This document shows, in pieces, positions 5,581 through 61,859 of a stretch of DNA of 64,000 nucleotides. A model generated the notes under the pieces. The model did no database searches, was not told where the DNA came from, and was given only the letters and a program-made list of their open reading frames with translations. A program made the position numbers and the translations under genes. The stretch is from Acuticoccus sediminis (lineage in GTDB: Bacteria; Pseudomonadota; Alphaproteobacteria; Rhizobiales; Amorphaceae). The stretch covers positions 62,001 through 126,000 of the forward strand of contig NZ_QHHQ01000007.1 in NCBI RefSeq assembly GCF_003258595.1. Direction: 5' to 3'. The number at the start of each line of letters is the position of its first letter. Position 1 is the stretch's first letter.

Positions 5581-5632
5581 GGGACGCGACGGTGGCGACG
5601 ACCCGGCGCGTCCGTCCCGGACGGTGCGGCTG

Positions 5633-42370: not shown

Positions 42371-43537
42371 ATGTCCGAGGACAGCGCCGAACTGGCGCAG
42401 TTTCGCGCCGACGTGGCGGCATGGCTGGACGCCAATTGCCCCGATGAGATGCGCGACGGCGCCACCGACCATGACAGCATCTGCTGGGGCGGTCGCCACT
42501 TCGTGTTCCAGTCCGACGCGCAGCGCCTCTGGCTGGAGCGGATGGCGCAACGCGGCTGGACCGCGCCGCGCTGGCCGGCCGAATACGGCGGCGGCGGTCT
42601 GACGCGCGAGGAGGACAAGGTCCTGCGGGAGGAGATGGCCCGCATCCACGCGCGCGTGCCCCTGTTCTCCTTCGGCCTCATGATGCTCGGCCCCGCGCTC
42701 CTCGCCTTCGGCCGCGAGGACCAGAAGCGTGAGCACCTGCCGAGGATCGTGCGCGGCGAGATCCGCTGGTGCCAGGGCTATTCGGAGCCCGGCGCCGGGT
42801 CTGACCTCGCCAGCCTGCAGACGCGCGGCGTCCTCGACGGCGACGAGTGGGTGATCAACGGGCAGAAGATCTGGACGTCCTGCGCCGACCAGTCCGACAT
42901 GATCTTCTGCCTCGTGCGCACCGACCGGGAGGCGCCGAAGCACCGCGGCATCTCCTTCCTCCTCGTCGACATGGACCAGCCGGGGATCGAGACGCGGCCG
43001 ATCAAGCTCATCTCCGGCCGCTCACCCTTCTGCGAGACCTTCTTCACCGATGCGCGCACCCACAAGGACAACGTCGTCGGCGAGGTGAACCGCGGCTGGG
43101 ACGTTGCCAAGTACCTGCTGACGCACGAGCGCGCCGGCGTCGGCGGCTTCCTGCAGACGCTCGCCGCCGGCCGCTCCCTCGCCGAGATCCTCAACGACGC
43201 GGGCACGCTGGACGATCCGGTGCTGCGCGCCGGGGCGATGCGGTGCGAGGTGGACAGCCTCGCCTTCTCGCTCACCTGCGACCGCTACGCCGATCAGGCG
43301 AAGGCCGGGCACGGCACCGGCGACGCCTCGGCGATGCTCAAGTACCTCGGCACCGAGATCAACAAGGACAGGCTGGAACTCATCATGTCGGCGCTCGGCA
43401 GCGAGGCGACCGACTGGGAGGGCGACGAGGGGATCGCCGCCAACTGGCTGCGCACCAAGGCCAACTCCATCGAGGGCGGCACCTCGGAGATCATGCTCTC
43501 CATCATCTCCCGCCGGATTCTGGAGCTGCCGCAGTGA
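42371..43537 (+). CDS. Acyl-CoA dehydrogenase, catalytic (alpha) subunit type
   Basis: 388 aa. FAD-dependent desaturase of acyl-CoA thioesters. CQGYSEPGAGSDLASL for FAD/substrate contacts; the candidate catalytic base is Glu253 in LLTHERAG, the position used by isovaleryl-CoA-type and ChsE4-type enzymes. The usual C-terminal EGT catalytic site is replaced by EGGTSEI. ATG 42371 lies 32 bp after a good -10. It overlaps the next ACAD gene as GTGA. Pairing with a base-less partner suggests an alpha2beta2 enzyme, as in steroid side-chain oxidation. Confidence 0.92.
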   Translation: MSEDSAELAQFRADVAAWLDANCPDEMRDGATDHDSICWGGRHFVFQSDAQRLWLERMAQRGWTAPRWPAEYGGGGLTREEDKVLREEMARIHARVPLFSFGLMMLGPALLAFGREDQKREHLPRIVRGEIRWCQGYSEPGAGSDLASLQTRGVLDGDEWVINGQKIWTSCADQSDMIFCLVRTDREAPKHRGISFLLVDMDQPGIETRPIKLISGRSPFCETFFTDARTHKDNVVGEVNRGWDVAKYLLTHERAGVGGFLQTLAAGRSLAEILNDAGTLDDPVLRAGAMRCEVDSLAFSLTCDRYADQAKAGHGTGDASAMLKYLGTEINKDRLELIMSALGSEATDWEGDEGIAANWLRTKANSIEGGTSEIMLSIISRRILELPQ

Positions 43538-44667
43538 GCCTCGCCGAGACCGACGACGAGGCGCTGCTGCGCGAGGCGGCGCGCGGCTTCCTCGACGACG
43601 CCGCGCCGGTGTCGCGCCTGCGCGCCATGCGGGACGACGGTCGCACCGGCGACCCGGACCTCTGGGCGCGGATGGTGGAGATGGGCTGGGCCGGCGTCCT
43701 CGTTCCCGAGGCTGCGGGCGGGGCCGACATGGGCCACCGCGCCGCGGGCATCCTCGCCGAGGAGATGGGCCGCACGCTCGCCGTCTCGCCGTTCCTGTCG
43801 ACCGCGGTGATCGCCGCGACGGCGCTCCGGCTGGCCGGCGGTCCGGCCGCCGGGGAGGCGCTCGGCGCCATCGCCGCGGGGCGCAGGACCTACGCCGTCG
43901 CCGTCGACGAGGGCCGCAAGTTCGCCCCCGCCGCCACCGGGATGACGGCGGAGCGCTCCGGCAACGGCTATTCCCTCACCGGCACCAAGACCTTCGTCGC
44001 CGACGGGGCGAACGCGGCACGCATCCTCGTCGTCGCCCGGACGTCCGGCACGCCGGGGGATGCCGTCGGCCTCACCCTCTTCGACCTGGAGCGCGGCCGC
44101 GCCGGGATCGCCGCCGATCCGGGCCGGTCCATCGACTCGCTCGACCGCGCGACGATCCGTTTTCAGGACGTCGAGGCGACCGGGGCGGACATCGTCGGCG
44201 CGCAGGACGAGGCGCTTTCGGTCCTGTCGCCGGCGCTGCGGGCGGGTCAGGCCGCGCTCGCCGCCGAAATGACGGGCTTGTCGGCAGCCGCGTTGCATTT
44301 AACCATAGCGTTCATGAAAGAGCGCAGGCAATTCGATCGACCCATCGGCTCGTTCCAGGCGTTGCAGTTCCGTGCGGCGCACCTGTGGAGCGATATCGAG
44401 ATGACGGCGTCGACGATCGTCAACGCGGGGCGCATGCTGGATACCGATCCCCAACGCGCCACGCTGGCGGTCTCCCTCGCCAAGGCGCGCGCGACCGCAA
44501 CGGCGCGGCTCGCTGTGTCGGAGGGCGTGCAGCTTCACGGCGGAGTGGGCGTGACCGACGCGCTCGACATGGGGTTTTACATGAAGCGTGCCCGCGTCGG
44601 CGCGGAGTGGCTGGGCGACTACGGCTACCACGCCGCCGAGGTGGCCCGTGAGCGAGGACTGCGATGA
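43534..44667 (+). CDS. Acyl-CoA dehydrogenase, non-catalytic (beta) subunit type
   Basis: 377 aa from GTG 43534, overlapping the preceding stop, with GGAG 8 nt upstream. Has the ACAD fold, with RRQFDRPIGSFQALQFRAA and QLHGGVGVTD, but no Glu at the HER position of its partner (LRAGQAALAAE instead) and no C-terminal EGT segment. This matches the structural subunits that pair with active ACADs in mycobacterial steroid catabolism (family knowledge). Probably inactive alone. Followed closely by the SDR gene. Confidence 0.9.
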   Translation: MSLAETDDEALLREAARGFLDDAAPVSRLRAMRDDGRTGDPDLWARMVEMGWAGVLVPEAAGGADMGHRAAGILAEEMGRTLAVSPFLSTAVIAATALRLAGGPAAGEALGAIAAGRRTYAVAVDEGRKFAPAATGMTAERSGNGYSLTGTKTFVADGANAARILVVARTSGTPGDAVGLTLFDLERGRAGIAADPGRSIDSLDRATIRFQDVEATGADIVGAQDEALSVLSPALRAGQAALAAEMTGLSAAALHLTIAFMKERRQFDRPIGSFQALQFRAAHLWSDIEMTASTIVNAGRMLDTDPQRATLAVSLAKARATATARLAVSEGVQLHGGVGVTDALDMGFYMKRARVGAEWLGDYGYHAAEVARERGLR

Positions 44668-44707: not shown

Positions 44708-45601
44708 TTGATCCGCTTCGACGACCGGGTGGCGATCGTCACCGGGGCGGGCGCCGGCATCGGCCGTGCCCACGCGCTGGGACTGGCCGAGCGCGGCGCC
44801 CGGGTGATCGTGAACGACTTCGCCGACCCGATGCCCGTGGTCGAGGAGATCCGGGCTGCCGGCGGCACGGCGATGCCCTGCGGGGCCGACGTCTCCGACG
44901 TCGCCGCGGTCAACCGGACCATGGAGCGCGCTGTCGCCGAGTGGGGCAGGGTGGACATCGTCGTCAACAACGCCGGTATCCTGCGCGACAAGTCGTTCGC
45001 GAAGATGCCGCTGGAGGACATGCGCCTCGTCCTCGACGTGCACCTCATCGGCTCGGTCAACGTCACCAACGCCGCCTGGCCGATCATGCGCGAGCAGGGC
45101 TATGGGCGCGTCCTCTTCACCTCGTCGTCGTCGGGGCTCTACGGCAATTTCGGTCAGGCCAACTACGGCGCCGCGAAGGCCGCGATGGTCGGCCTCATGA
45201 ACGTCCTCGCCATCGAGGGCGAGCGCTACGGCATCCGCGTCAACTGCCTCGCCCCGACCGCGACGACGCAGATGACCGCCGAGCTCCTTTCGCCCGAGGC
45301 GGCCGAGGTGCTCGACCCCGCGACCATAACTCCCGGCGTCCTGTGGCTCGTCTCGGACGACGCGCCCTCCAAGATGATCATGGGGGCCGGCGGCGGCTGC
45401 TTCACCGAGATCCGCATCACCGAGACGCCCGGCATCACGCTTCCCGCCGGGTCGCTGACGCCCGAGGAGGTCGCGGCGCGGGCCGCGGCGATCCGCGATC
45501 CGGAGGGTGCGGCGCCCTTCGTCAACGCATTCTCGCAAACCAACACCTTCGTCGAACGCGCCATCGCACTGCGCCGCGCGGCGACGTCCAAGACCGCCTG
45601 A
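44708..45601 (+). CDS. SDR family oxidoreductase, MFE-2/HSD17B4-like (3-hydroxyacyl-CoA dehydrogenase)
   Basis: 297 aa from TTG 44708, chosen because GGAGG lies 8 nt upstream and it gives the conserved start [15 protein letters not shown]; an in-frame GTG at 44648 would overlap the ACAD gene. TGAGAGIG coenzyme motif, [12 protein letters not shown] and catalytic Ser/Tyr/Lys ([20 protein letters not shown]) match the N-terminal domain of multifunctional enzyme type 2, which oxidises (3R)-hydroxyacyl-CoA. Extra C-terminal residues 250-297 are helical. It sits between an ACAD pair and a thiolase, consistent with beta-oxidation. Confidence 0.9.
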
Positions 45602-45611
45602 GAGGATATCC

Positions 45612-46814
45612 ATGCGCGAAGCCGTCATCGTCTCCACCGCCCGCACGCCCATCGGCAAGGCCTACCGCGGCGCGTTCAATGACACGCAGGCGCAGGCCCT
45701 CGGTGGTCACGCCGCCTCCGAGGCGCTGAAGCGCGCCGGTGTCGATGCCGCCGAGGTCGAGGACTGCATCATCGGTGCGGCCCTCCAGCAGGGCTCGACC
45801 GGCTACAACATCGGCCGCCAGGTGGCGATGGCCGCGGGCATGCCCGTCACGGTCGCCGGCATGTCGATGGACCGCCAGTGCGCGTCCGGCATGATGGCGA
45901 TCGCCACCGCCGCCAAGCAGGTCATCGCCGACAGCATGGACATCGTCGTCGGCGGCGGCCTCGAGTCGATCTCGCTGGTCCAGAACGAGCATCAGAACAC
46001 CTTCCGCGCCCGCGATCCGGAGATCGTGGAGCGCCTCCCGTCCCTCTACATGTCGATGCTGGAGACGGCCGAGACGGTGGCGCAGCGCTACGGCGTCTCC
46101 CGCGAGGCGCAGGACGAATACGCCCTCCAGTCGCAGAAGCGGACCGCCGAGGCCCAGGCCGCCGGCAGGTTCGACGACGAGATCGTGCCGCTGACCGCGG
46201 TCATGAAGGTGGTCGACAAGGAGACCAAGGCGGTCTCCGACCGGGAAATCACGCTGCGCAGCGACGAGGGCAACCGCCCGCAGACCACCCTCGACGGCCT
46301 CGCCTCGCTGAAGGCGGTGCCGATCAACGGTCAGAAGATCGTCGACGGCATCACGATCACCGCCGGCAACGCGTCCCAGCTGTCGGACGGCGCATCCGCC
46401 GCGGTGGTGATGGAGGCGAAGGAGGCGGAACGCCGCGGGCTCTCGCCGCTCGGCCGCTACGTCGGCATCGCCGTCGCCGGCTGCGAGCCGGACGAGATGG
46501 GCATCGGCCCGGTCTTCGCCGTGCCGAAGCTGCTGGCGAAGAACGGCCTCACAATGGACGACATCGACCTCTGGGAGCTCAACGAGGCGTTCGCGGTGCA
46601 GGTCCTCTACTGCCGCGACAAGCTGGGGATCCCGAACGACAGGCTGAACGTCAACGGCGGGGCGATCTCCATCGGCCATCCCTACGGAATGTCCGGCGCG
46701 CGCATGGTCGGCCACGCGCTGATCGAGGGCAAGCGCCGGGGCGCCCGGTACGTCGTCTGCACCATGTGCGTCGGCGGCGGCATGGGCGCCGCGGGTCTCT
46801 TCGAGGTCCTGTAG
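45612..46814 (+). CDS. Thiolase family protein (acetyl-CoA acyltransferase)
   Basis: 400 aa. Catalytic residues are Cys90 in DRQCASGM, His356 in [10 protein letters not shown] and Cys386 in [10 protein letters not shown], so all three thiolase motifs are present. Cleaves 3-ketoacyl-CoA with CoA, releasing acetyl-CoA or propionyl-CoA. ATG 45612 has GAGGATATC upstream, 10 bp after the SDR stop. It completes a beta-oxidation unit: ACAD, dehydrogenase, thiolase. No dedicated hydratase gene is in this operon. Confidence 0.95.
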
Positions 46815-46837
46815 GGGCCCGGCAGGCGCATGGCTCG

Positions 46838-47491
46838 ATGATCAAGCTCTACGGCCACCCGTTCGCGGCCTTCGTCTGGAAGCCGCTGATCGCGCTGCGC
46901 GAACGCGCGGTGCCGTTCGAGTTCCTGATGGTCGACCCCGACCACCCGGAGAACGGCGCCGCGCTGGCGAGACTGGCCCCGACGGGCCAGTTCCCGGTCC
47001 TCGTCGACGGGGCGCGCACGGTGGTCGAGTCGAGCGTCGTCATCGAGTACCTCGACCGCTTCGGCGACGCGCCGCCGCTGGTGCCGGCCGATCCGCTCGC
47101 GGCCATCGAGGTGCGGCAGATGGACGGCATCTTCGACGACTACGTCGCGGCACCGATGCAGCGGATCGTCGCCGACGCGCTGCGCGATCCGGCGGTCCGC
47201 GACCCGCACGGGGTCGCCGAGGCGAAGGCCGCGCTGTCGCGCGCCTACGACTGGCTCGAGCGGTGGCTGGCGGGGCGGACCTTCGCCGCCGCGGGCATGT
47301 TCTCGATGGCCGACTGCGCCGCCGCGCCGGCCCTCTTCTACGCCGACTGGGTCCACGAGATCCCGGCCGGCTGCGCGGCGCTGAGGGACTACCGCGCCCG
47401 CCTGCTCGCCCATCCATCGGTCGCGCACGTCGTCGACGGCGCGCGGCCCTATCGCCCGTACTTCCCGCTCGGAGCACCGGACCGGGACTGA
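46838..47491 (+). CDS. Glutathione S-transferase family protein
   Basis: 217 aa. Thioredoxin-like N-domain (residues 1-78) with MIKLYGHPFAAFVWK and the cis-Pro/ESSVVIEYL glutathione-binding motif (residues 66-76), then an all-helical C-domain with SMADCAAAPAL. The catalytic residue position suggests a beta or zeta-like class, but the exact class is not clear. Starts 23 bp after the thiolase stop in the same operon; it could handle an electrophilic intermediate or be a detoxification accessory. Confidence 0.88.
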   Translation: MIKLYGHPFAAFVWKPLIALRERAVPFEFLMVDPDHPENGAALARLAPTGQFPVLVDGARTVVESSVVIEYLDRFGDAPPLVPADPLAAIEVRQMDGIFDDYVAAPMQRIVADALRDPAVRDPHGVAEAKAALSRAYDWLERWLAGRTFAAAGMFSMADCAAAPALFYADWVHEIPAGCAALRDYRARLLAHPSVAHVVDGARPYRPYFPLGAPDRD

Positions 47492-47556
47492 CAGACTGAA
47501 CCGAGCGACGCCCCATCCGAATGAGGGCGCGCCGAACACGTGAGGGGAAACGCCCG

Positions 47557-48798
47557 ATGAACCTTGGAATGAGCGATCGCGTCGCCCCGCTCGTCGAGCG
47601 CGTGCGCGACATGGTCGAGAACGAGATCGCACCGCTCGATCACGAGTATCATGCCGAGATCGGTCGCCACCCCTCCGGCGACCGCTTCCAGATGACCGAC
47701 CGGCAGTACGAGATCCTCGCGACGCTGAAGGCGACGGCGCGCGAGCGGGGTCTGTGGAACTTCTGGCTCACCGACTCCTCGCGCGGCTACGGCCTGACGA
47801 CGGTGGAGTACGCGTACCTCGCCGAAGAGATGGGCAAGGTCGGCATCGCCGCCGAGGTCTTCAACTGCTCCGCGCCCGACACCGGCAACATGGAAGTGTT
47901 CGAGCGCTACGGCTCCGACGCGCACAGGCAGAAGTGGCTCGCCCGCCTGCTCGAGGGCGAGATCCGCTCCGCCTACGTCATGACCGAGCCGGGCGTCGCC
48001 TCGTCGGACGCGACGCAGATCGCCCTCTCAGCCCGCAGGGACGGCGGCGACTACGTCCTCAACGGCGAGAAGTACTGGGCCTCGGGCGCCGGCGACCCGC
48101 GCTGCAAGGTGATGATCGTGATGGCGGCGACGGACCCGGACGGGCCCAAGCACGCGCGCCACTCCATGTTCGTCGTCCCGCGCGACGCGGCCGGGATCGA
48201 GACGGTCCGCCCGATGCAGGTGTTCGGCAACGACGACGCGCCGCACGGCCACATGCACCTGAAGTTCAAGGACGTGCGGGTGCCGGCGGAGGATCTCATC
48301 CTCGGCGAGGGGAGGGGCTTCGAGGTCGCCCAGGGGCGGCTCGGCCCGGGCCGCATCCACCACTGCATGCGCGCCATCGGCCAGGCCGAGAAGGCGCTGG
48401 AACTCATGTGCCGCCGTGCCGTTTCCCGAACGGCCTTCGGCAAACCCATCGCGGAGCTTGGCGCCAACTACGACATCATCGCCAACGCCCGGATGGAGAT
48501 CGAGATGGCGAGGCTGCTCTGCCTCAAGGCCGCGTACATGATGGACACCGTCGGCACCCGTCAGGCGCAGCCCTGGATCTCCCAGATCAAGGTCGTCGCG
48601 CCGCTGATGGCCTGCAAGGTCGTCGACGAGGCGATGCAGATCCACGGCGCCACCGGCATCAGCCAGGATACCCCGCTCTACCAGATGTACCACAAGCTCC
48701 GGACGCTGCGCTTCGCCGACGGGCCGGACGCCGTCCACCGCCGGCAGGTCGCGCGTGCCGAACTGAAGCGCTACACCAACCAGAAAGCAGCAGAGTAG
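47557..48798 (+). CDS. Acyl-CoA dehydrogenase, ACAD10/11 (LvaC-like) type
   Basis: 413 aa from ATG 47557, which has GAGGGGAAA upstream. Distinct from the paired ACADs. RLGPGRIHHCMRAIG near residue 265 and the C-terminal LRFADGPDAVHRRQ are hallmarks of ACAD10/11 dehydrogenase domains. In eukaryotes that domain is fused to an APH-like kinase; here a separate APH-like kinase gene lies two genes downstream. By analogy with the LvaA-LvaC levulinate pathway, the kinase phosphorylates the 4-hydroxyl of a 4-hydroxyacyl-CoA and the ACAD eliminates phosphate and isomerises to 3-hydroxyacyl-CoA. That activity is inferred. Confidence 0.9.
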   Translation: MNLGMSDRVAPLVERVRDMVENEIAPLDHEYHAEIGRHPSGDRFQMTDRQYEILATLKATARERGLWNFWLTDSSRGYGLTTVEYAYLAEEMGKVGIAAEVFNCSAPDTGNMEVFERYGSDAHRQKWLARLLEGEIRSAYVMTEPGVASSDATQIALSARRDGGDYVLNGEKYWASGAGDPRCKVMIVMAATDPDGPKHARHSMFVVPRDAAGIETVRPMQVFGNDDAPHGHMHLKFKDVRVPAEDLILGEGRGFEVAQGRLGPGRIHHCMRAIGQAEKALELMCRRAVSRTAFGKPIAELGANYDIIANARMEIEMARLLCLKAAYMMDTVGTRQAQPWISQIKVVAPLMACKVVDEAMQIHGATGISQDTPLYQMYHKLRTLRFADGPDAVHRRQVARAELKRYTNQKAAE

Positions 48799-49461
48799 TT
48801 GGCCGAACTGATCCTCATCCGCCACGCCCAGGCCTCGTTCGGGGCGGCGGACTACGACGTCCTCTCCGAGCGCGGCCATCGCCAGTCCGCTGCGCTCGGG
48901 CTCGCCCTCAAGGCGCACGGCACGACCCCGGCCGCCGTCTTTCGCGGCGAGATGCGCCGCCACCGGGAGACGCTGGACGGCGTGACCGGGACTCTCGGCG
49001 TCACCGCCGAGCCCGCCATCCTGCCGGGCCTCAACGAGTTCGACTTCCGGGCCGTCCTCACCGCCCGCTACGGCGAGGAGGGCCCGCCCGGGCTCCACGA
49101 CGACCGCAAGACGCACTTCCGCAACCTGCGCGAGACGGTGCTCATGTGGCAGCGCGACGAGATCGACGGCGTTCCGGAGCGGTTCGGCGACTTCCAGGCG
49201 CGTGTCCTCGGCGCGGTCGACACCATGACGGCGAGCGGGGCGGACAGTGTGATGGCGGTCTCCTCGGGAGGGCCGATCGCGCTGGTCGTCGCGACGTTGC
49301 TGGAGACGCCGCTCAAGAAGATGATCGAACTTCAGCTTCAGATGAAGAACTGTGCCGTGACCCGGATCGTGTTCACCCCGACGCGCCGCTTCCTGCACAC
49401 CTTCAACGAAACGCCGCACATCGACGCCGAGACCACCGCAGAGTACTTGACCTATAGTTGA
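48799..49461 (+). CDS. Histidine phosphatase family protein
   Basis: 220 aa. The phosphohistidine motif is LIRHAQAS (Arg8-His9), and the second His-containing site is degenerate: VSSGGPIALV replaces the usual SHG, which is common in this subgroup. Starts with TTG directly after the ACAD stop, with no gap, so coupled translation is likely. Cytoplasmic. Being between the ACAD and the kinase, it may remove phosphate from dead-end phospho-acyl intermediates or act as a regulator; neither is shown. Confidence 0.88.
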   Translation: MAELILIRHAQASFGAADYDVLSERGHRQSAALGLALKAHGTTPAAVFRGEMRRHRETLDGVTGTLGVTAEPAILPGLNEFDFRAVLTARYGEEGPPGLHDDRKTHFRNLRETVLMWQRDEIDGVPERFGDFQARVLGAVDTMTASGADSVMAVSSGGPIALVVATLLETPLKKMIELQLQMKNCAVTRIVFTPTRRFLHTFNETPHIDAETTAEYLTYS

Positions 49462-49464
49462 ATA

Positions 49465-49476
49465 ATGTGATCACAT
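49465..49476. promoter_or_regulatory. Perfect 12-bp palindrome before the kinase gene
   Basis: ATGTGATCACAT is exactly self-complementary and lies 18 bp before the kinase start in the 33-bp gap. It looks like a helix-turn-helix operator (TGTGA / TCACA halves). The owner is unknown. Confidence 0.4.
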
Positions 49477-49494
49477 CGCCATGAAGACCGCCCC

Positions 49495-50526
49495 ATGACG
49501 AACGCCGCCGCATCCTTCGACGTGACCGCCGTCGAATCCTGGCTCTCCCGAACCGTCGACGGATTTCAGGGATCGCTGACGGCGGAGAAGTTCCCCGGCG
49601 GGCAGTCCAACCCGACGTTCAGGCTCACCTCGCCGAGCGGCTCCTACGTCCTGCGCCGCAAGCCGCCGGGTACGCTCTTGAAGTCCGCGCACGCCGTCGA
49701 CCGCGAGTTCCGCGTGCAGAAGGCGCTCGCCGACACCGCGGTGCCGGTCGCCCGGATGGTCGCGCTGTGCGAGGACGACAGCGTCATCGGCTCGATGTTC
49801 TACGTGATGGAGCATGTCGCCGCGCGCCACTTCGACGATCCGCGCACGCCCGAGCTCTCGTGCGATGAGCGCGCCGCCGTGTTCGACGCGATGAACGAGA
49901 CGATCGCCGCCATCCACTCCGTCGACGTCGATGCGGTCGGGCTCGCCGACTACGGCCGTCCGGGCAACTACTTCGCGCGCCAGCTCGACCGCTGGACCAG
50001 GCAGTACCGCGCCTCCGAGACGCGCCACATCGACGACATGGAGACGCTGATCGGCTGGCTGGAGGAGCACCTTCCCGAGGACGACGACCGCCGCACCCTC
50101 GTCCATGGTGACTTCCGCCTCGACAACCTGCTGTTCCACACCGACCGGCCGAGGGTGCGCGCGGTGCTCGACTGGGAGCTTTCGACGCTCGGCCACCCGT
50201 TCGCCGACCTCGCCGCGATCCTGATGCAGTGGCGCCTCGAGCCGGGATCGACCGGGCGCGGCCTCGCCGGGGTCGACCGCGCGGCGCTCGGCATCCCCAC
50301 CGACGAAGCCTTCGTCGAGGCCTATTGCCGGCGCACCGGCATCGCCGGCGTGCCGCACCTCAACGTCTACATGGCGTTCTGCTTCTTCCGGATGGCGGGG
50401 ATCCTCCAGGGGATCGAAAAGCGCCGGATCGACGGCAACGCCTCGAACCCGGAGCGGGCCGCCGCCGTTGGCGCGCTGGTCCCGGTCTACGCCAGGATGG
50501 GCATGGAGACGGCGTCGTATGGATAG
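49495..50526 (+). CDS. Phosphotransferase family protein (APH-like, LvaA/ACAD10-11 kinase type)
   Basis: 343 aa. Kinase-like fold: glycine-rich [12 protein letters not shown], Lys in YVLRRKPPG, catalytic loop HGDFRLDN near residues 204-211 and metal Asp in [11 protein letters not shown] near 226. The [15 protein letters not shown] and ELSTLG signatures match the kinase domain of ACAD10/11 and LvaA rather than antibiotic kinases. Expected to phosphorylate a hydroxyacyl-CoA. ATG 49495; the ribosome site is weak. Third member of the ACAD / phosphatase / kinase group. Confidence 0.9.
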
Positions 50527-50646
50527 ATTTCCCCCGCGGGAGAAGGTTTCGGTGCAAGGCATAAGTTCGATTGATGCGCCGCATACCGGTTTCCCGATCA
50601 GCATCTTGCGTCCAGCCCCGCTGGGCGCGAAGAAGAATTCGTGACC

Positions 50647-51465
50647 ATGACATCATCCGCACCAGACGACCTCGAATCGACCGATGAGAACGACCGCAGC
50701 TTCGTGACCGCGCTTGCCCGCGGCCTCGACGTCCTGCGCTGTTTTCGTCCGAACGAGACGACCCTCACGAACCAGGACATCGCCGCGCGCACCGGGCTCC
50801 CGAAGCCGACCGTGACGCGGCTGACCTACACTCTCCGGCGCCTCGGCTACCTCGCCCATTCGGAGCGGACCGGCACATACCGCCTCAGCGCGGGCGTCCT
50901 GTCGCTCGGCTACGGCGTGCTCGCCGGGATGGAGATCGGCGACCGCGCACAGGCCGAGCTGCGCCGCCTGGTGGACGAGGGGTCCAACCCGCACGTCACC
51001 GCGGCGCTCGCCGAGCGGCACCGCCTCAGCGCGGTCTACATGGCCGTCGCGCGGGCCCGGCACACGGTGTCGATGACGATGAACGTCGGGGCGCGGCTGC
51101 CGCTCTTCTCCTCGGCGATCGGCCGCGCGATCCTCGCCGGTATGCCCGAGCAGGAGCGCGAGCACATCGTCCTCCTCGCCAGGAGCGAGATGCCGGACCG
51201 GATCCACGAGATCGAGACCGGCGTCGAGGCCGCGGTCACGTCCTACCAGAAGCACGGCTTCTGCACCGCGTTCGCCGACTGGCGGCCGGAGGTGAACGGC
51301 ATCGCGGTGCCGATCATCTCGCTCAACGGCGACCGGATCTACGGCCTCAACGTCGGCGGCCCGTCCTTCCTCGTCTCGCCGGAATGCCTCGCGGAGGAGT
51401 ACGGCGACCGGCTCAAGTCGTCGTGCGAGGTGCTCAGCCAGCCGGCCCGTCCCGCCGCCTCATGA
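50647..51465 (+). CDS. IclR family transcriptional regulator
   Basis: 272 aa from ATG 50647 (GTG 50641 also possible). N-terminal winged HTH at about residues 18-80 (FVTALARGLDVLRCF, IAARTGLPKPTVTRLTYTLRRLGYL), then the GAF-like effector domain from about residue 95 with SSAIGRAILA and GIAVPI. IclR proteins usually control aromatic or acyl catabolic genes and bind palindromes. It lies at the end of the catabolic operon and overlaps the next thioesterase gene as ATGA. It is the best local candidate for the livK/ACAD operator. Confidence 0.92.
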   Translation: MTSSAPDDLESTDENDRSFVTALARGLDVLRCFRPNETTLTNQDIAARTGLPKPTVTRLTYTLRRLGYLAHSERTGTYRLSAGVLSLGYGVLAGMEIGDRAQAELRRLVDEGSNPHVTAALAERHRLSAVYMAVARARHTVSMTMNVGARLPLFSSAIGRAILAGMPEQEREHIVLLARSEMPDRIHEIETGVEAAVTSYQKHGFCTAFADWRPEVNGIAVPIISLNGDRIYGLNVGGPSFLVSPECLAEEYGDRLKSSCEVLSQPARPAAS

Positions 51466-51881
51466 GCTACCCCGACCTCGACCCGGCGCTGTTGGAAGCG
51501 CCGTATCCGGCACAGGCGCATCTCGGCTACGAGCTCGTGGCCTGGAGCGAGGACCTCGCGGTCTTTCGCATGCCGATCCGCACGATCCATCACAACCGCT
51601 ACGGCATCACGCACGGCGGCCTCTACTCGGTGCTGCTCGACACGGTGATGGGCTATGCCGGCTGCTTCACCGGCGACCCCGAGACCCGGCGCTTCGCGAT
51701 GACGCTGTCGCTCACGACCAACTACCTGGCGCAGCCGAGCGGCGACGTGCTCGTCGCGGAAGGCCGCCGCGTCGGTGGCGGCAGGCGCGTCTATTTCGCG
51801 GAAGGGACGGTGTTCGACGGCGCGGGCACGGTCTGCGCCCGCGCGTCCGGGACGTTCCGTTACCGGACCGGCGGCGCGTAG
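51462..51881 (+). CDS. PaaI family hotdog-fold thioesterase
   Basis: 139 aa from ATG 51462, coupled to the IclR gene. Hot-dog fold with the helix motif ITHGGLYSVLLDTVMGYAG near residues 47-65, where His-Gly-Gly starts the catalytic helix. Likely hydrolyses acyl-CoA thioesters, freeing CoA when the pathway stalls. It converges with the ogt gene, overlapping it by 22 bp at the 3' ends. Confidence 0.9.
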   Translation: MSYPDLDPALLEAPYPAQAHLGYELVAWSEDLAVFRMPIRTIHHNRYGITHGGLYSVLLDTVMGYAGCFTGDPETRRFAMTLSLTTNYLAQPSGDVLVAEGRRVGGGRRVYFAEGTVFDGAGTVCARASGTFRYRTGGA

Positions 51882-52532: not shown

Positions 52533-53594
52533 TTAAGCGGCCATGTGTGCAGCCATGACACGCTCCAGATGGAAGTCCGTGTCGCCGAGCTGCGCGTCGA
52601 GCATCGTGAGCCGCTTGGCGTAGTGCGACAGCGGGTATTCCCACGTCATCGCGATGCCGCCGTGCATCTGGATCGTCTCCTCGGCGGTCAGCTTCGCCGC
52701 CCGGCCGATGAGGTTCTTCGCCATCGAGCAAGTGCGTGATTGTTCGGGCGTTCCCATCCGGCTCGCGGCGAGGATGGTGATCGACCGCGCCTGCTCGATC
52801 TCGATCGAGACGTCCACTGCGCGGTGCTGCAGGGCCTGGAAGTCGCCGATGCGCTTGCCGAACTGCTTGCGCGTCCTGAGGTAGTCGAGGAGCGTCGCGA
52901 AGGACCAGTCCATCGCCCCGACCGCCTCGGCGCAGAGGGCGAGCGTCCCCCAGTCGAGCGCGTCCTGCAGCGCGGCCGCGCCGTCGGCGAGCACGGTGCG
53001 GGCTTGTGTCGCATCGAGGAAGACCTCGCCCGCCGGCCCGCCGTCGATCATCCCGTAGGCGGTGACGCGCGCGTCCGACCCGTCCACCTCGTAGACGCCG
53101 AGCGTGCCGCCCGCCATCGCCGCGACGAGGATCCTGTCGGCCCCCGGCGCGCCGTACACGACGCTCTTGCGCCCGGTGAGCGTGCCGCCCGACGCCTCGG
53201 TCTCGATGAGGTCCAGCGTATAGGGGGCGGACAGCTCGCCGATCGCGACGGCGTAGCGCGTCGTGCCGGAGAGGGGGCCCTCCAGATCCTCGCCGGCGGC
53301 CATCAGCAGGCGGATCGCCATGAGCTGCGCCAGCACGGGCTCGGGACACAGCGCGCGGCCGAGCTCCTGGAACACCGTCGTGACGTCGAACCCGGTGCCG
53401 CCGAAGCCGCCGTTCTCCTCCGGCGCGAGCGCCATCAGCGTCCCGAGCTCGCACAGCGCGGCCCACTTCTCGGGCGAGTGGTAGGGGGCCGCGTAGGCGA
53501 CCTTGTTGCGGGCCGCGATGTCGTAGTCGCTCGACAGGAAGCGCGACAGGGTGTCGGCGAGCATCCGCCGGTCGTCGGAAACCTCGAAGTCCAT
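52533..53594 (-). CDS. Acyl-CoA dehydrogenase, non-catalytic (beta) subunit type
   Basis: 353 aa. ACAD fold with RTRKQFGKRIGDFQALQHRAVDV and QMHGGIAMTWEYPLSHYAKR at the end. It lacks a Glu at the position of Glu244 in its partner (the region reads ALDWGTLALCAEA) and lacks the C-terminal EGT catalytic segment. Same layout as the ACAD pair at 42-44.7 kb. It ends the TRAP/FadB/ACAD minus-strand operon, starting 14 bp after the catalytic ACAD stop. Confidence 0.88.
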   Translation of the reverse strand: MDFEVSDDRRMLADTLSRFLSSDYDIAARNKVAYAAPYHSPEKWAALCELGTLMALAPEENGGFGGTGFDVTTVFQELGRALCPEPVLAQLMAIRLLMAAGEDLEGPLSGTTRYAVAIGELSAPYTLDLIETEASGGTLTGRKSVVYGAPGADRILVAAMAGGTLGVYEVDGSDARVTAYGMIDGGPAGEVFLDATQARTVLADGAAALQDALDWGTLALCAEAVGAMDWSFATLLDYLRTRKQFGKRIGDFQALQHRAVDVSIEIEQARSITILAASRMGTPEQSRTCSMAKNLIGRAAKLTAEETIQMHGGIAMTWEYPLSHYAKRLTMLDAQLGDTDFHLERVMAAHMAA

Positions 53595-53608
53595 CAGATC
53601 TCCCTCCC

Positions 53609-54796
53609 TCAGAGTCCGAGGACGGTCTTGGTGAGGATGTTGCGCTGGATCTCGTTCGACCCGCCGAAGATCGAGAGCTTGCGGTTGTTGAAGTAGCTCG
53701 CCGCCGCGTGGGCGTGCTCGGGCGCCACCAGCGCCTCGTTGCCCTCCAGATCCTCCGACGGGAAGGGCGCGGCGGCCGGACCGAGCGCCCGGCGCGAAAG
53801 GTCGTTGAGCGCCTGGCGGATGACGGTCCCCTTGATCTTCATCATCGAGGTCTCGGGGCCGGGGGCGCCGTTCTTCTGCGCCTCGTAGAGGAGGCGCAGG
53901 TTCGTCACCTTCATGGCCTCGAGGTCGATCTCGATCTCGGAGAGGCGGGCGGCGAAGAGGGGGTTGTCGATCAGCCGCTTGCCGTTGCGGCGCTGCTCCC
54001 GCGCGAGCCCCTTCAGGCGGTCCAGCGCCTCGTTGGAGAAGCCGACGCCGGCGATCCCCGTACGCTCGTGCGTCAGCAGGTACTTGGCGACGGTCCAGCC
54101 CTTGTTCTCCTCGCCGACGAGGTTCTCGGCCGGCACGCGCACGTCGGTGAAGAACACCTCGTTCACCTCGTGCCCGCCCTCGATCAGCTTGATCGGCCGG
54201 ACCTCGATGCCGGGCGTCGCCATGTCGACGAGGATGAAGCTGATCCCCTCCTGCGGCTTCACCTCCGGGTTGGTGCGCACCAGGCAGAAGATGTGGTCGG
54301 CGTGCTGGCCGAGCGTCGTCCAGGTCTTCTGGCCGTTGATGACGTACGTGTCGCCGTCACGCACCGCCCGCGTCTTGAGCGAGGCGAGGTCCGACCCCGC
54401 GCCCGGCTCGGAGTAGCCCTGGCACCACCAGTCGTCCTGGTTGAGGATGCGCGGCAGGTAGCGGGACTTCTGCGCCTCGTTGCCGAACTTCATCAGCACC
54501 GGGCCCAGCATGTGGACGCCGAAGGAGACGATGCGCGGGGCGTGCGCCATCGCCATCTCCTCGTCGAAGATGTGCCGCTCGACCGGGGTCCAGCCGGGGC
54601 CGCCGGCCTCCTTCGGCCAGGTCGTGGCGTACCAGTGGCGCTCCTCGAGGACCCGCTGCCAGCGCTCGTGATCGTCCTTGGTGAGCGACTTGCCGGTCTT
54701 CACCTTCTCGGCGATGTCCTTCGGCAGCTTCTCGGCGAGGAAGGTGCGCACCTCCTGGCGGAAGGCTTCCTCTTCGGGCGTAAAGGAGAGGTCCAT
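53609..54796 (-). CDS. Acyl-CoA dehydrogenase, catalytic (alpha) subunit type
   Basis: 395 aa. CQGYSEPGAGSDLASLKTR as in the other alpha subunit, candidate catalytic Glu244 in LLTHERTGIAG, and a C-terminal FGGSNEIQRNIL, the GGSNEI form that lacks the classical EGT base. The ATG at 54796 is 3 bp after the fadB-like stop. Forms a predicted heteromeric enzyme with the next gene. The two alpha subunits share the YSEPGAG and THER features, suggesting duplication of a pair for different substrates or chain stages. Confidence 0.92.
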   Translation of the reverse strand: MDLSFTPEEEAFRQEVRTFLAEKLPKDIAEKVKTGKSLTKDDHERWQRVLEERHWYATTWPKEAGGPGWTPVERHIFDEEMAMAHAPRIVSFGVHMLGPVLMKFGNEAQKSRYLPRILNQDDWWCQGYSEPGAGSDLASLKTRAVRDGDTYVINGQKTWTTLGQHADHIFCLVRTNPEVKPQEGISFILVDMATPGIEVRPIKLIEGGHEVNEVFFTDVRVPAENLVGEENKGWTVAKYLLTHERTGIAGVGFSNEALDRLKGLAREQRRNGKRLIDNPLFAARLSEIEIDLEAMKVTNLRLLYEAQKNGAPGPETSMMKIKGTVIRQALNDLSRRALGPAAAPFPSEDLEGNEALVAPEHAHAAASYFNNRKLSIFGGSNEIQRNILTKTVLGL

Positions 54797-54799
54797 CGC

Positions 54800-56875
<2,076 letters not shown>

Positions 56876-56945
56876 GGTCGATCGTCCGGTTGGAGGTGGG
56901 GCCGGCGGGGGCCGGCCGCGCGCATTGGCCGTCGGGCGGTCGTCA

Positions 56946-58928
56946 TCAGGCGACCGCCCGGCGGACTTGGCCGGCCTGCCGCGCACGCAGGATCGGCAAT
57001 ATGGACAGCGCCAGACCGATGGCCGACAGCTGGATGTGGCCGAGCCCCAGCCCCTCGACCTCCGGCACCGCGAAGAACAGGCCGCCGATGAAGAGGAGCA
57101 CGCGCATCGCCGCGCCGTCGACACCCGCGAGCGGGCCGGCGAAGCTGACATATCCCTGTAATGCCATGGAAATGAAGGCGACGCCGATCAATGCCGTCAC
57201 CAGCGTGATCGCCACTTCGAAGAACGAGCCCTCGCCGATGAGCGCCGGGTTGAGCACGAAGAAGAAGGGGATGATGTAGATGACGCTGCCGAGGCGCATC
57301 GCCTCGAACCCGGCCTTCATGGCGTTGCCGCCGGCGAGGGTGGCGGCGGTGTAGGCGCCGAGCGCCACAGGCGGGGTGATGTAGCTCACCATGCCCCAGT
57401 AGAGGATGAAGAGGTGCACGGCGAGGATGTTGAGCCCGCCCTGCTCCAGCGCCGGCGCGAGCACCACGGCGAGGAAGATGTAGCACGCCGTCACCGTCAT
57501 CCCCATGCCGAAGACGAACGCCGTCAGCGCGCCCATGATGAGGAGGACGAAGGTGTTGTCGCCGGCGATGAAGACCAGCTCGTTGACGAGCGTGCCCGCG
57601 AGCCCCGTCGCGGAGAAGGCGCCGACGATGAGGCCGACCCCGAGCAGGATCGCGACCAGCTCGGCGAGCGCGGCCCCGACACCGACGACGAGGTGCTTGA
57701 GCCCCGTCCACGACAGGCGGTGCTGCGGCAGGATCTGGTTCACCACGAGGAGGAGCAGCGTCGAGTAGAAGGGCGCCGCCGTCTCCATCCGGAAGACCAG
57801 CATGAGGAGGATGAGGACGGCGAAGACGCCGACATAGAGCCAGCCCTCGCGCAGCGTCTTGGCGAGGCGGGGCAGATCCGGGCGCGGGATGCCCGAGAGG
57901 CCGCGCCGGGCGGAGTAGGCGTCGATCTGCGTGAACAGGCCGAAGTAGAAGAGGAGCGAGGGGATCGCCGCCGCGACCGCGATGTCGACGTAGGGCCGCG
58001 ACAGGAACGAGGCCATCACGAACGCGGTCGCGCCCATGATCGGCGGCATCAGCACGCCGCCGGTCGAGGCGCACGCTTCCGTCGCGGCGGCGGTGTTGGC
58101 GGAGAAGCCCGTCTTCTTCATCGCCGGGATCGAGACGGCGCCGGTGGTGAGCACGTTGGAGATCACCGAGCCCGACATCGAGCCCATGAAGCCGGACGCG
58201 AAGATCGACACCTTCGCGGCCCCGCCGCGGTACTGGCCGACGAGGGCCATCGCGAGGTCGTTGAAGAACTGCCCGCCGCCCGTGCGCTGCAGCACCGCGC
58301 CGAACAGGATGAAGCCGATGACGAGGCCGCCGAACGCCTTCATCGGGATCCCGAAGGCGCTCTCGGACGAGTAGATGTGGTAGGAGATCGCCTCCAGCGG
58401 CGGGCTCTGGAAGCCCGAGAACGGGTCCGGCACCCAGCTCGCGAAGGTCGGGTAGAACGCGAACAGCGTGACGATGCAGAAGAGCACCCAGCCGCCGGCG
58501 CGCCGCGTCGCCTCGAGGACGAGCAGGAAAAATCCGACCGCCACCCACTGGGCGAGCGGTGGGGCCGCGAACTCCCATGCCTCGAGGAGGTTCTGCCCCG
58601 CCGTCGCGACGAGATAGCCGCCGGTGGCGAGCGACGCCGCGACGAGCGCCCAGTCGAGCGCGGACACCTTGCCGCCCTTGTAGCCGTCCCAGCGGAAGAC
58701 CACGAAGGAGACGGCGAGGAAGAGCGTCCCGAGCGCATAGAGGTACCGGCCCTCGATGATGACGCCGAGGAAGGCCAGGTTGAAGAGCTGGTAGACCACG
58801 AGCGCGACGCCCGCGAGGGTGATGACGAGGATCGTCAGGCGCGCGGCGCCGCGGAAGGTCTCCGTCGGGTCGATCGGACCGGAGACGGTCGGGCTCGGCC
58901 GGTCGCCGGCTGGGGTGGCGTTGGTCAA
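56946..58928 (-). CDS. TRAP transporter permease, fused 4TM/12TM (DctQM) type
   Basis: 660-aa inner-membrane protein with 15-18 hydrophobic helices. The N-terminal about 190 residues are the small DctQ-like unit; the rest is the large DctM-like channel with FGGLVIGFILFGAVLQRTGGG, SGSVISNVLTTGAVSIP and ACASTGGVLMPPIMGATAFVMA, the sodium/substrate motifs. Starts with TTG 58928; no better start is evident. Together with the TAXI-type binding protein it is a sodium-driven importer of an organic acid. 70 bp upstream of fadB-like gene, one operon. Confidence 0.93.
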   Translation of the reverse strand: MTNATPAGDRPSPTVSGPIDPTETFRGAARLTILVITLAGVALVVYQLFNLAFLGVIIEGRYLYALGTLFLAVSFVVFRWDGYKGGKVSALDWALVAASLATGGYLVATAGQNLLEAWEFAAPPLAQWVAVGFFLLVLEATRRAGGWVLFCIVTLFAFYPTFASWVPDPFSGFQSPPLEAISYHIYSSESAFGIPMKAFGGLVIGFILFGAVLQRTGGGQFFNDLAMALVGQYRGGAAKVSIFASGFMGSMSGSVISNVLTTGAVSIPAMKKTGFSANTAAATEACASTGGVLMPPIMGATAFVMASFLSRPYVDIAVAAAIPSLLFYFGLFTQIDAYSARRGLSGIPRPDLPRLAKTLREGWLYVGVFAVLILLMLVFRMETAAPFYSTLLLLVVNQILPQHRLSWTGLKHLVVGVGAALAELVAILLGVGLIVGAFSATGLAGTLVNELVFIAGDNTFVLLIMGALTAFVFGMGMTVTACYIFLAVVLAPALEQGGLNILAVHLFILYWGMVSYITPPVALGAYTAATLAGGNAMKAGFEAMRLGSVIYIIPFFFVLNPALIGEGSFFEVAITLVTALIGVAFISMALQGYVSFAGPLAGVDGAAMRVLLFIGGLFFAVPEVEGLGLGHIQLSAIGLALSILPILRARQAGQVRRAVA

Positions 58929-59118: not shown

Positions 59119-60255
59119 TCAGAAGTAGACCTCGAAGTCGCCGTCGGCGAGCGCCTTGCGCCGGGTCTCGGCCCAGGCGGCTTCCCAGTCGCTCGGGTTC
59201 TCGGCCTTCAGCGCGTCCCAGGTCTTCTTGAGGGCGGCCTGGCGGGCGACCAGCTTGTCGTTGTGCGCCTGCGCCTCGTCATTCCAGACGCCGGCCTCCT
59301 TGTAGTAGCGGATCGCGCCGTCGTGGTAGGGCACCACCCAGTTGAAATTCTGGAACTCGAGCGCCCAGCCGTTGATGCCGGGCGCCTTGCCCTTGTAGGC
59401 GGGGTAGAGATCGAACATCGCCTTCGTCATGTTGTAGACGAGGTCCTCGTCCTGCTCCGCCATCGCGGTGAGGACGGGGTAGGCGTAGCCGGCGCCCTGG
59501 TAGCCGTCCGTGCCGTCGATGTCGGCGCCGACGGTGGCGAGGTTCGGGGTGAAGAACGGCGCGATGCCGGTCATCCGTTTCAGCCCGTCCTTGTCGTCGG
59601 GATCGACGGGCGGCCAGAAGAGGCCCCGCGGTCCGGTCGCCGCCTCGTAGGCCATGCCGGAGTTGGTGGAGGCGAATGCCGCGTCGACCTGGTCCTCGAT
59701 CAGCCCGCGCCAGGCTGCGCCGAAGCCGCCGAACTCGACCTTCTCGACATCGTCCCAGCCGAGGCCGCCGTAGGCGAGGTAGGCTTCGACGTTCACGTTG
59801 AGCGCCGGCGCGCCGACGACCCAGGCGACGCGCTTGCCCTTGAGGTCGGAGTAGGTCTTGATCCCCTCGTCGCCGGCGACGCCGACGGACAGGTTGATCG
59901 CTCCGCCGTTGTTGGCCGCGAGGACGCGCACGGCCTGCGGTCCCCAGTTCGCCTCGCCAAACTCGAAGACGCCTTCCTGCGCCATGAACGAGCCGCCGAC
60001 GCCGGTCGCGGAGAACTGGACTCGGCCGCGCCGCAGCGGCTCGGTGCGCGAGATGTCGTTCTTGCCGGGCAGCACGCGGAGATTGACGCCGGCTGCGTCC
60101 TGCAGCGCCGCGCCGATGGCGACCGCCTGGTTGTAGCCGGCCGACCCCGTGTCATAGGCCGTCCAGGCGAGCTGGCGCGGCAGATCGAGGTCCTGCGCAT
60201 TCGCGGAGGTGGCCAGGAACAGCGCGCACACTGCGGCACTGAGGCGGAAATTCAT
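59119..60255 (-). CDS. TAXI family TRAP transporter solute-binding protein
   Basis: 378 aa. Sec signal peptide ends at residue 20 (ATSANA), so periplasmic. Features of the TRAP-associated extracytoplasmic immunogenic family: WTAYDTGSAGYNQAVAIGAAL at the start, RGRVQFSATGVGGSF, LKGKRVAWVVG and DQVDAAFAST. First gene of the minus-strand operon TAXI, TRAP permease, FadB-like, ACAD alpha, ACAD beta. A dyad GCGGAA-N5-TTCCGC lies 100 bp upstream. Ligand unknown. Confidence 0.93.
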   Translation of the reverse strand: MNFRLSAAVCALFLATSANAQDLDLPRQLAWTAYDTGSAGYNQAVAIGAALQDAAGVNLRVLPGKNDISRTEPLRRGRVQFSATGVGGSFMAQEGVFEFGEANWGPQAVRVLAANNGGAINLSVGVAGDEGIKTYSDLKGKRVAWVVGAPALNVNVEAYLAYGGLGWDDVEKVEFGGFGAAWRGLIEDQVDAAFASTNSGMAYEAATGPRGLFWPPVDPDDKDGLKRMTGIAPFFTPNLATVGADIDGTDGYQGAGYAYPVLTAMAEQDEDLVYNMTKAMFDLYPAYKGKAPGINGWALEFQNFNWVVPYHDGAIRYYKEAGVWNDEAQAHNDKLVARQAALKKTWDALKAENPSDWEAAWAETRRKALADGDFEVYF

Positions 60256-60704
60256 ATCAGTCCTCCCGTCGGTCGACGCTCGCGGCGCCTTATTGTCGGT
60301 GCTACCTCCGCCTCTGCGGGCGGATGCTCAAAGTTGTGGCAGTGCCGAATTTTAGCGGAATGTCGTTCCGCACCGCGGATTTTTTCAGCCGCCGGCATCG
60401 AAAGTCAAGGTTTGCTGAACCAGCGCCCGGATACACTGATCGTCCGGCTCGCGACGCGGTCGGTGCGGCACCGGGGCCGGATGCGAGCAATGTCGGGGCG
60501 AAGAGATCGACAGTGGGCACGGCTGTCCACAGGTGGCTATTTTCACGGCAACAATTTTGCCGGCTCAAATGGGAGGCATTTGCGAACGGTCGCGTTCTTG
60601 TTACGCTGCTGCAAGCCGGCAAAATACCGGTACGACCCGACATGACTCGGACCGGACCGGAGGAGGCCAGGCACAGAGCCGCGAGAGCTAGGTGGGGGAC
60701 CACT
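60256..60704. other. 449-bp divergent spacer, TAXI gene / ppx, with leader structure
   Basis: Relatively AT-rich, no gene seen. Near the TAXI side lies GCGGAA-TGTCG-TTCCGC (60355-60371), a likely operator. Near the ppx side is the compact multi-stem structure 60554-60655 described separately. The plus-strand frame is open through most of the spacer but its translation resembles nothing and the composition is unlike coding DNA. Confidence 0.5.
60554..60655 (+). ncRNA. Candidate structured leader RNA of ppx-rlmE
   Basis: ATTTTGCCGGCT (60554-60565) pairs perfectly with AGCCGGCAAAAT (60614-60625). Inside lie CAAATG-GGAGG-CATTTG (60566-60582) and, one base later, GAACG-GTCG-CGTTC (60584-60597), giving a three-way junction. 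A further hairpin, CCGGT..CCGA / TCGG..ACCGG, follows at 60627-60655. The GGAGG loop is a Shine-Dalgarno-like sequence held in a hairpin loop, 120 bp before the ppx start. I know no matching riboswitch class. It may act as a cis-regulatory element or a separate small RNA. Confidence 0.4.
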
Positions 60705-61859
60705 ATGAGCGTCCAAGGCGAGCAACAGGGTGAGCGCCCCGGCCGAATCACCGGCTTCGACGGTGAGAGGAACGGCTTCCGGCGCCCCTTTCCGGTCACG
60801 AAGCGATCCCACGCGGCTCGCTCGCGCCGGTATGCTGCGCTGGACCTCGGGACCAACAACTGCCGGCTCCTGATCGCGGAGGCGCGCGGCACCGGGTTCC
60901 GCGTCGTCGACGGATTTTCCCGCATCGTGCGCCTCGGCGAGCGCCTCTCCTGCGACGGCGTCCTCTCCGAGCCGGCGATGTCGCGCGCCATCGAGGCGCT
61001 GAAGGTGTGCGCCGCCAAGCTGGACCTCGCCGACGTCGCCTCCGCGCGCCTCGTCGCCACCGAGGCCTGCCGCTCCGCCCGCAACGGGCGCGACTTCACC
61101 GACCGCGTGCGTACCGAGACCGGCCTCGACATCGAGGTGGTCGACCGCGAGACCGAGGCCCGCCTCGCCGTCGCCGGCTGCGCCCCCCTCATCGCCGACG
61201 ACGCCGAGGGCGTGCTGCTGTTCGACATCGGCGGCGGCTCGTCCGAGATCGTCTGGATCGACCTCACCAGCCGCTACCGCCTTTCCGGCACAGCCCTGGT
61301 GCGCTGCATCCGGGCGTGGACGTCGCTCCCGGTGGGCGTCGTCACCCTCGCCGAGCGCCACGGCGGCACCGAGGTCGACGAGACCGTCTTCGCCGACATG
61401 GTCGCCGACGTGCGGCAGATGCTCGACCGGATCGACCCGCGCGGCGTTCTCGCCGAGGCCGTCGCCCGCGGCAAGGTGCACCTCCTCGGCACCTCCGGCA
61501 CCGTGACCACGCTCGCCGGACTGTTCCTCGGCCTCAAGCGCTACGACCGCCGCCAGGTCGACGGCACCTGGCTCGACCACCAGCAGATCGACACGCTGAT
61601 CGCCCAGCTCCTGTCGATGGATTTCAACGAGCGCGTCGCCAATCCGTGCATCGGTGCGGACAGGGCGGACCTTGTCCTCGCGGGCTGCGCCATCCTAGAA
61701 GCGATCCGTCAGCGCTGGCCGTGCGAACGGCTGCGCGTTGCGGACCGGGGATTGCGCGAAGGGATGCTCATGGAGCTCATCGAACACGACCGCCTGGCGC
61801 GACACCGCTCCCGCCGGAGCCGCGTGTCCGTCATCGGCGCGGCACCGACGCTCGCCTGA
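60705..61859 (+). CDS. ppx: Ppx/GppA exopolyphosphatase family protein
   Basis: 384 aa from ATG 60705. ASKHA-fold phosphatase: phosphate-1 motif [12 protein letters not shown] near residues 46-57, [12 protein letters not shown] near 175, and the central [13 protein letters not shown]. Acts on polyphosphate or guanosine pentaphosphate, linked to the stringent response; which one is uncertain. About 45 basic, Arg/Gly-rich residues precede the fold. The short 384-aa form lacks the C-terminal HD domain of E. coli Ppx. The rlmE gene follows immediately, so an operon is likely. Confidence 0.92.

Follow-up and report, generated by a model that had tools for sequence, protein, structure and literature searches.

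A histidine phosphatase subfamily with a serine in place of the second catalytic histidine is a widespread genomic partner of predicted bacterial 4-hydroxyacyl-CoA kinases

Introduction

The human proteins ACAD10 and ACAD11, in which a kinase and an acyl-CoA dehydrogenase (ACAD) are fused, were functionally assigned only in 2024-2025. In the homologs studied, a 4-hydroxyacyl-CoA is first phosphorylated by the kinase at its 4-hydroxyl group; the flavoenzyme of the ACAD11 type then removes the phosphate by elimination, leaving a 2-enoyl-CoA. Assays exist for homologs from Pseudomonas putida and from Burkholderia pseudomallei, and both the 4-phospho-acyl-CoA and the free 4-phospho acid have been measured in mammalian cells (PMC11342911). 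ACAD10 additionally contains a HAD phosphatase-like domain with an incomplete DxD motif and negligible phosphatase activity that nevertheless lowers the kinase activity (PMC11342911), which raises the question of why the domain is there.

In the bacterial lva operon, the kinase (LvaA) and the dehydrogenase (LvaC) are encoded by separate genes and are accompanied by the small protein LvaB, a sigma-54-type regulator, LvaR, and, in the wider cluster, a short-chain dehydrogenase (SDR) and an acyl-CoA ligase. The levulinate cluster of Pseudomonas citronellolis LA18T, described in 2019, lacks lvaB and contains, in this order, a phosphotransferase homologous to LvaA, a histidine phosphatase family protein, an LvaC-like ACAD and an SDR (PMC6692424). 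Here we describe a related locus of Acuticoccus sediminis, in which a histidine phosphatase is inserted between the dehydrogenase and the kinase, and show that this phosphatase is not a local oddity but a widespread, previously unnamed partner of the kinase.

Organization of the gene cluster

The window, that is, the entire stretch of 64,000 nucleotides that was analyzed, contains three genes arranged head to tail on the plus strand within a beta-oxidation cluster: a predicted 4-phosphoacyl-CoA phosphate-eliminating dehydrogenase of the ACAD10/11-LvaC type (47557-48798; Pfam ACAD N, M and 1 domains and homology to ACAD11), a histidine phosphatase of what we denote the SGG subfamily (48799-49461; PF00300, His_Phos_1, E 5e-21) and a predicted APH-fold 4-hydroxyacyl-CoA kinase of the ACAD11/LvaA type (49495-50526; PF01636, E 1e-55). 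The list of open reading frames offers an alternative ATG start for the ACAD at 47521, 36 bp upstream of 47557. The TAG stop codon of the ACAD gene is immediately followed, with 0 bp in between, by the TTG start codon of the phosphatase at 48799, and the relatives of the phosphatase start at the equivalent residue (for example, MAELWLVRHAQ in locus L052), so that the abutment of the two genes, which had been noticed in the original prediction, is real. The phosphatase and kinase genes are separated by 33 bp, and no small open reading frame lies between the three genes, in agreement with the initially reported lack of an LvaB-like gene.

The head of the gene row consists of two further ACADs (42371-43537 and 43537-44667, identified by Pfam), an SDR of the 3-hydroxyacyl-CoA dehydrogenase type with an uncertain start codon (44708-45601; PF00106), an acetyl-CoA acyltransferase or thiolase (45612-46814; PF00108/PF02803) and a glutathione S-transferase-like protein (46832-47491; GST_N/GST_C), all on the plus strand. 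Downstream of the kinase, on the same strand, there is a PcaR/PcaU-like regulator of the IclR family (50641-51465; TIGR02431 at 127.5 bits, below the cut-off of 284.75), in contrast to the sigma-54-type LvaR, followed by a PaaI-like thioesterase of the 4HBT family (51462-51881; PF03061). The 3' ends of the thioesterase gene and of the O6-methylguanine methyltransferase gene on the opposite strand overlap by approximately 22 bp (51860-51881). Farther downstream, the minus strand encodes a pimC-like pair of small and large ACADs together with a FadJ-type hydratase/dehydrogenase (52533-57076), so that, compared with the lva operon, a full beta-oxidation set surrounds the three genes. The region beyond the cluster (59119-61859) encodes an NMT1-like solute-binding protein and a Ppx/GppA phosphatase, and positions 4001-8000 of the window reach a G+C content of 0.75-0.76, compared with 0.70 for the remainder.

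Much of this arrangement is conserved. The thiolase neighbor is retained in Vannielia, Sulfitobacter and the genus of the window, the IclR regulator is located 3' of the kinase in relatives as well, and the thioesterase gene adjoins the phosphatase-kinase pair in several of them. The full cluster, including the minus-strand ACAD pair and FadJ, is preserved in another genome of the same genus (G365) and, largely, in Vannielia litorea (L070).

The segment 33289-42422 encodes an AMP-binding ligase (33289-34929), a serine hydrolase of the beta-lactamase family and an ABC transporter of the branched-chain-amino-acid type, the latter among genes on the opposite strand. In Sulfitobacter (L163), the transporter and a serine hydrolase likewise flank the phosphatase-kinase pair; perhaps, these flanking genes hint at an imported ester or lactone. 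The ligase and the SDR at 44708-45601 are candidate counterparts of the LvaE-type ligase and the LvaD-type SDR, respectively, as matched by family.

The dehydrogenase and the kinase

The original prediction assigned the ACAD to the ACAD10/11-LvaC type and the kinase to the LvaA type from the motifs FADGPDAVH in the former and HGDFRLDN and ELSTLGHP in the latter, all of which are indeed present in the proteins. This assignment is borne out by sequence comparison with proteins of known structure. Among the closest relatives of the ACAD in PDB are ACAD11 of mouse (8v3u, E 4e-121) and of human (2wbi) as well as bacterial homologs, and R260, R265, H268, R271 and D388 align one-to-one with R626, R631, H634, R637 and D753 of mouse ACAD11, the residues that distinguish ACAD10/11 from other ACADs (PMC12440821). 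Thus, the active-site set of mouse ACAD11 is fully kept, including the HCMR motif with the upstream arginine (R260, H268 and R271) and the catalytic aspartate that replaces the usual glutamate (D388, within FADGPD), each of which is essential or specific in ACAD11 (PMC12440821). The HHCMR sequence is present in all 18 of the ACAD neighbors that were sampled.

For the kinase, the best PDB matches are 3dxp (E 5e-115) and the kinase domain of mouse ACAD11 (E 2e-82). Its catalytic HGDxxxDN motif takes the form HGDFRLDN, with D206 and N211 aligned with mouse D220 and N225, and the DWELS motif is present as well. R162 aligns with the CoA-contacting R176 of the mouse protein, and R70 is located beside the alpha-C glutamate, its mapping to mouse R86 being uncertain. 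Among 200 sampled Pseudomonadota genomes, the kinase is found in 51 and the ACAD in 50, all 50 of which encode both. Taken together, the ACAD11-specific residues, the kinase homology and this co-occurrence make it a well-supported prediction from sequence that the two proteins are a bacterial equivalent of the human ACAD11 pathway of 4-hydroxy fatty acid breakdown, encoded by separate genes rather than fused. The substrate of the route would be 4-hydroxyvaleryl-CoA or a longer 4-hydroxyacyl-CoA, between which the sequence does not discriminate. The same genome encodes a second kinase of this family (G000 C5:121737-122696; loci L002 and L227) that is 55% identical to the first one and is adjoined by an SDR, without a phosphatase.

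A distinct subfamily of histidine phosphatases

The phosphatase shares the fold and the core signature of branch-1 histidine phosphatases, such as PhoE, phosphoserine phosphatase 1, CobC and PGAM5, namely the nucleophile-containing RH dyad (R8 and H9), the second arginine (R54) and the glutamate acid (E80). In contrast to these enzymes, the position of the second catalytic histidine is occupied by a serine, S156, in every sampled member. In the set of 108 relatives, gathered from sampled genomes and from a collection of named genomes, R8, H9, E80, S156, G157 and G158 are invariant, and R54 is present in 107. The collection was scanned with the N-terminal motif LIRHGQASF, not with the serine, so that the serine result is not circular. 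Of 69 further matches, 68 have the serine and one could not be parsed. In most of the remaining PF00300 proteins encoded in the same genomes, this position is a histidine (HGG, HGN, HMP, HQP).

The AlphaFold model of the phosphatase (pLDDT 95.3) matches canonical histidine phosphatases (9mmh, 4ij5 and 1h2e in Foldseek), with VIA-align Z scores of about 21 to PGAM5, RosC and PhoE. A search of PDB with the phosphatase sequence alone yielded no match, and the family profile retrieved only canonical members, so that by sequence there is no solved structure in PDB for the SGG subfamily. We considered the C-terminal H207 as a substitute for the lost histidine, but the same N...HL ending occurs in 9mmh, which retains its second histidine, and hence this residue is not a special feature of the subfamily.

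In the histidine phosphatase superfamily, the second histidine is usually important for catalysis, and therefore, the SGG phosphatase might have only low activity or serve as a sensor. The retention of the nucleophile, both arginines and the glutamate speaks for catalysis or, at least, phosphate binding, and the fixed replacement of histidine with serine suggests altered chemistry or a narrower substrate range. The fixed serine appears to be a new observation: in the open-access literature searched, neither the subfamily nor the serine change is the subject of any paper. The same literature contained no assay of any SGG-subfamily enzyme and no functional test of the phosphatase, consistent with the perceived novelty of its role, and it goes unmentioned in the P. 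putida and beta-proteobacterial fitness studies consulted.

Genomic associations of the phosphatase

The association of the phosphatase with the kinase and the ACAD far exceeds chance expectation, given that genes of the three families adjoin each other in the same direction, in several arrangements, across numerous unrelated genomes. In the sample of 200 Pseudomonadota genomes, all 27 phosphatase-encoding genomes also encode both the kinase and the ACAD (Fisher p 1e-19, uncorrected for relatedness), and for 18 of the 29 phosphatase copies, the kinase is no more than 6 kb away and invariably encoded on the same strand. By comparison, another ACAD of the gene cluster, used as a control, is present in 18 of these 27 genomes and is a neighbor in only 2 of the 29 cases, as counted by hand. 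Furthermore, the distances of the kinases and the phosphatases are correlated (r 0.87; 0 of 2000 permutations, with shared ancestry uncorrected). The search for the ACAD-phosphatase-kinase triplet, which the original prediction had called for, recovered that order in 3 loci along with three other triplet orders (ACAD-kinase-phosphatase in 7, phosphatase-ACAD-kinase in 5 and phosphatase-kinase-ACAD in 3), and the phosphatase and the kinase form a row without an ACAD in 23 loci. The possibility that the ACAD has been replaced where it is missing from the row found no support in the one genome checked (G067), in which an ACAD11 homolog with 70% identity is encoded on another contig.

The pair or the triplet recurs in Pseudomonadota, in Deinococcota and on one Streptomyces plasmid, so that the phosphatase commonly adjoins such kinases across at least three phyla. 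An extended form, ACAD-SDR-kinase-phosphatase, is found in Deinococcus, Streptomyces, Pseudoalteromonas, Ideonella and one Rhodobacteraceae plasmid, and contains a second type of kinase in which HND replaces HGD; thus, the phosphatase accompanies both kinase sub-clades. In two Pseudomonadaceae genera, 121 of the 124 genomes sampled contain a match to the phosphatase family, and further matches come from many Rhodobacteraceae and from Deinococcus. With respect to the lva operon, then, the original prediction was correct in that a phosphatase is inserted, but the contrast with lva that it drew needs correction, because a histidine phosphatase, likened to the one analyzed here by annotation, is already present in the lva-like cluster of P. 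citronellolis (PMC6692424), in the order kinase-phosphatase-ACAD-SDR.

Other neighbors recur as well. The usual context in the two Pseudomonadaceae genera is phosphatase-SCP2-kinase, with an SCP-2 sterol-carrier protein of about 103 amino acids in between (L046:6159-8641). In many Rhodobacteraceae, a flavoprotein of the nitronate monooxygenase family directly precedes the phosphatase, in the position of the ACAD of the window (L052:6953-8005; L055, L071, L166); in L241, it precedes the kinase instead. The plasmid of Haematobacter massiliensis (L166) carries this flavoprotein, the phosphatase and a thioesterase, with no adjacent kinase.

Despite this coupling, the phosphatase is an accessory to the kinase. 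In the order to which the window belongs, a close kinase is encoded in 131 of the 397 genomes, and the phosphatase only in 8; of these 8, 7 pass the kinase threshold, and the eighth has a nearby APH-type gene with 28% identity. Two relatives from the same genus as the window illustrate both sides of this accessory status. G408 (L254, contig C9) has the order ACAD-kinase-IclR-thioesterase with a 30-bp gap in place of the phosphatase, and in G279 (L250, contig C22), the order is thiolase-phosphatase-IclR, the adjacent ACAD and kinase having been lost, whereas the phosphatase gene is intact and, with a dN/dS of 0.27-0.30, evolves under purifying selection. Hence, the main reactions do not require the phosphatase, and it can persist after its neighbors have disappeared. 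Given the G279 case and the solitary copies, among which are most of those in Comamonadaceae and a group from Rhodobacterales, the role of the phosphatase may be wider than this pathway.

Possible roles of the phosphatase

In the scenario that follows, the kinase would phosphorylate the 4-hydroxyl of a 4-hydroxyacyl-CoA, and the ACAD would eliminate the phosphate, as their homologs do, with the resulting 2-enoyl-CoA presumably routed through beta-oxidation by the neighboring hydratase, dehydrogenase and thiolase. Going beyond the observed identity, residues, genomic coupling and accessory status of the phosphatase, we infer for it the following substrate, direction and role. As a dedicated accessory of the kinase, off the main line, the phosphatase would most likely act on 4-phosphoacyl-CoA or on the free 4-phospho acid, stripping the phosphate off such species when they have stalled or derive from a wrong substrate and thereby preventing CoA and phosphate from being trapped. 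The existence of such species is indicated by their detection in mammalian cells. Hydrolysis of 4-phosphoacyl-CoA undoes the kinase reaction and so cannot advance the pathway, which, together with the frequent presence of a thioesterase next to phosphatase loci, is compatible with a role in overflow control or in the repair of CoA esters or free phospho acids unsuitable for the ACAD. On balance, we consider it somewhat more likely than not that the locus is a 4-hydroxyacyl-CoA feeding module in which the phosphatase is a safety valve on phospho-acyl species.

The main rival to the safety-valve scenario, less probable but to be taken seriously, is that the phosphatase has little or no catalytic activity and instead acts as a regulator, sensing phospho-acyl-CoA and holding the kinase back, in which case it would correspond to the HAD domain of ACAD10. 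This possibility is compatible with the loss of the second catalytic histidine in every member read, with the precedent of ACAD10, where the kinase is fused to an activity-lowering domain (PMC11342911), and with the fact that, in many loci, no gene is closer to that of the kinase than the phosphatase gene, which even overlaps it in Deinococcus. Against it, the nucleophile histidine, the glutamate and one arginine are invariant, and the second arginine is nearly so, which would be unusual in a dead enzyme. The intact nucleophile, arginine and glutamate lead us to lean toward catalysis, with the fixed serine keeping the regulator alive as a candidate.

Whichever the mode of action, both ACAD10 and the locus analyzed here pair the kinase with a phosphatase-like protein, a HAD domain in the former and a histidine phosphatase in the latter. 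We therefore tentatively propose, at slightly less than even chances, that the subfamily with the fixed histidine-to-serine replacement is a dedicated counter-enzyme or brake of the kinase, and that the pairing of this kinase with an altered phosphatase, which keeps phospho-acyl-CoA in check, arose independently in bacteria and animals. If bacteria keep a separate phosphatase beside the same kinase, the ACAD10 question becomes testable by simple deletions and with purified proteins, and a function would be gained for a family annotated merely as 'histidine phosphatase family protein'. The subject is also relevant to the engineering of 4-hydroxy acid and levulinate use, for which lva genes have been transferred without a phosphatase partner.

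It is quite unlikely that the phosphatase catalyzes an in-line step, removing the phosphate of 4-phosphoacyl-CoA en route to 3-hydroxyacyl-CoA. Phosphate removal was suggested for P. citronellolis in 2019, based on the absence of lvaB and the presence of the phosphatase in that cluster (PMC6692424), but simple hydrolysis only gives back 4-hydroxyacyl-CoA, ACAD10/11 and LvaC eliminate the phosphate unaided, and most kinase-bearing genomes of the order to which the window belongs, as well as G408 with the same operon, lack the phosphatase. No more credible is an unrelated housekeeping enzyme, such as a general acid phosphatase or a CobC-like protein, located there by chance: the NCBIfam matches of the phosphatase are to alpha-ribazole phosphatase, all of them weak, and single copies are located elsewhere in some genomes, but the recurrent co-directional neighborhood in several gene orders and three phyla, and the complete co-occurrence in the 200-genome sample, with the control gene uncoupled, speak against a chance location. 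Finally, the least plausible reading, an ordinary ACAD accompanied by a kinase with some other substrate, agrees with the conventional motifs of the remaining ACADs of the cluster but is contradicted by the HCMR motif, the upstream arginine and the catalytic aspartate, all found in this ACAD, and by its presence in 50 of the 51 kinase-encoding genomes.
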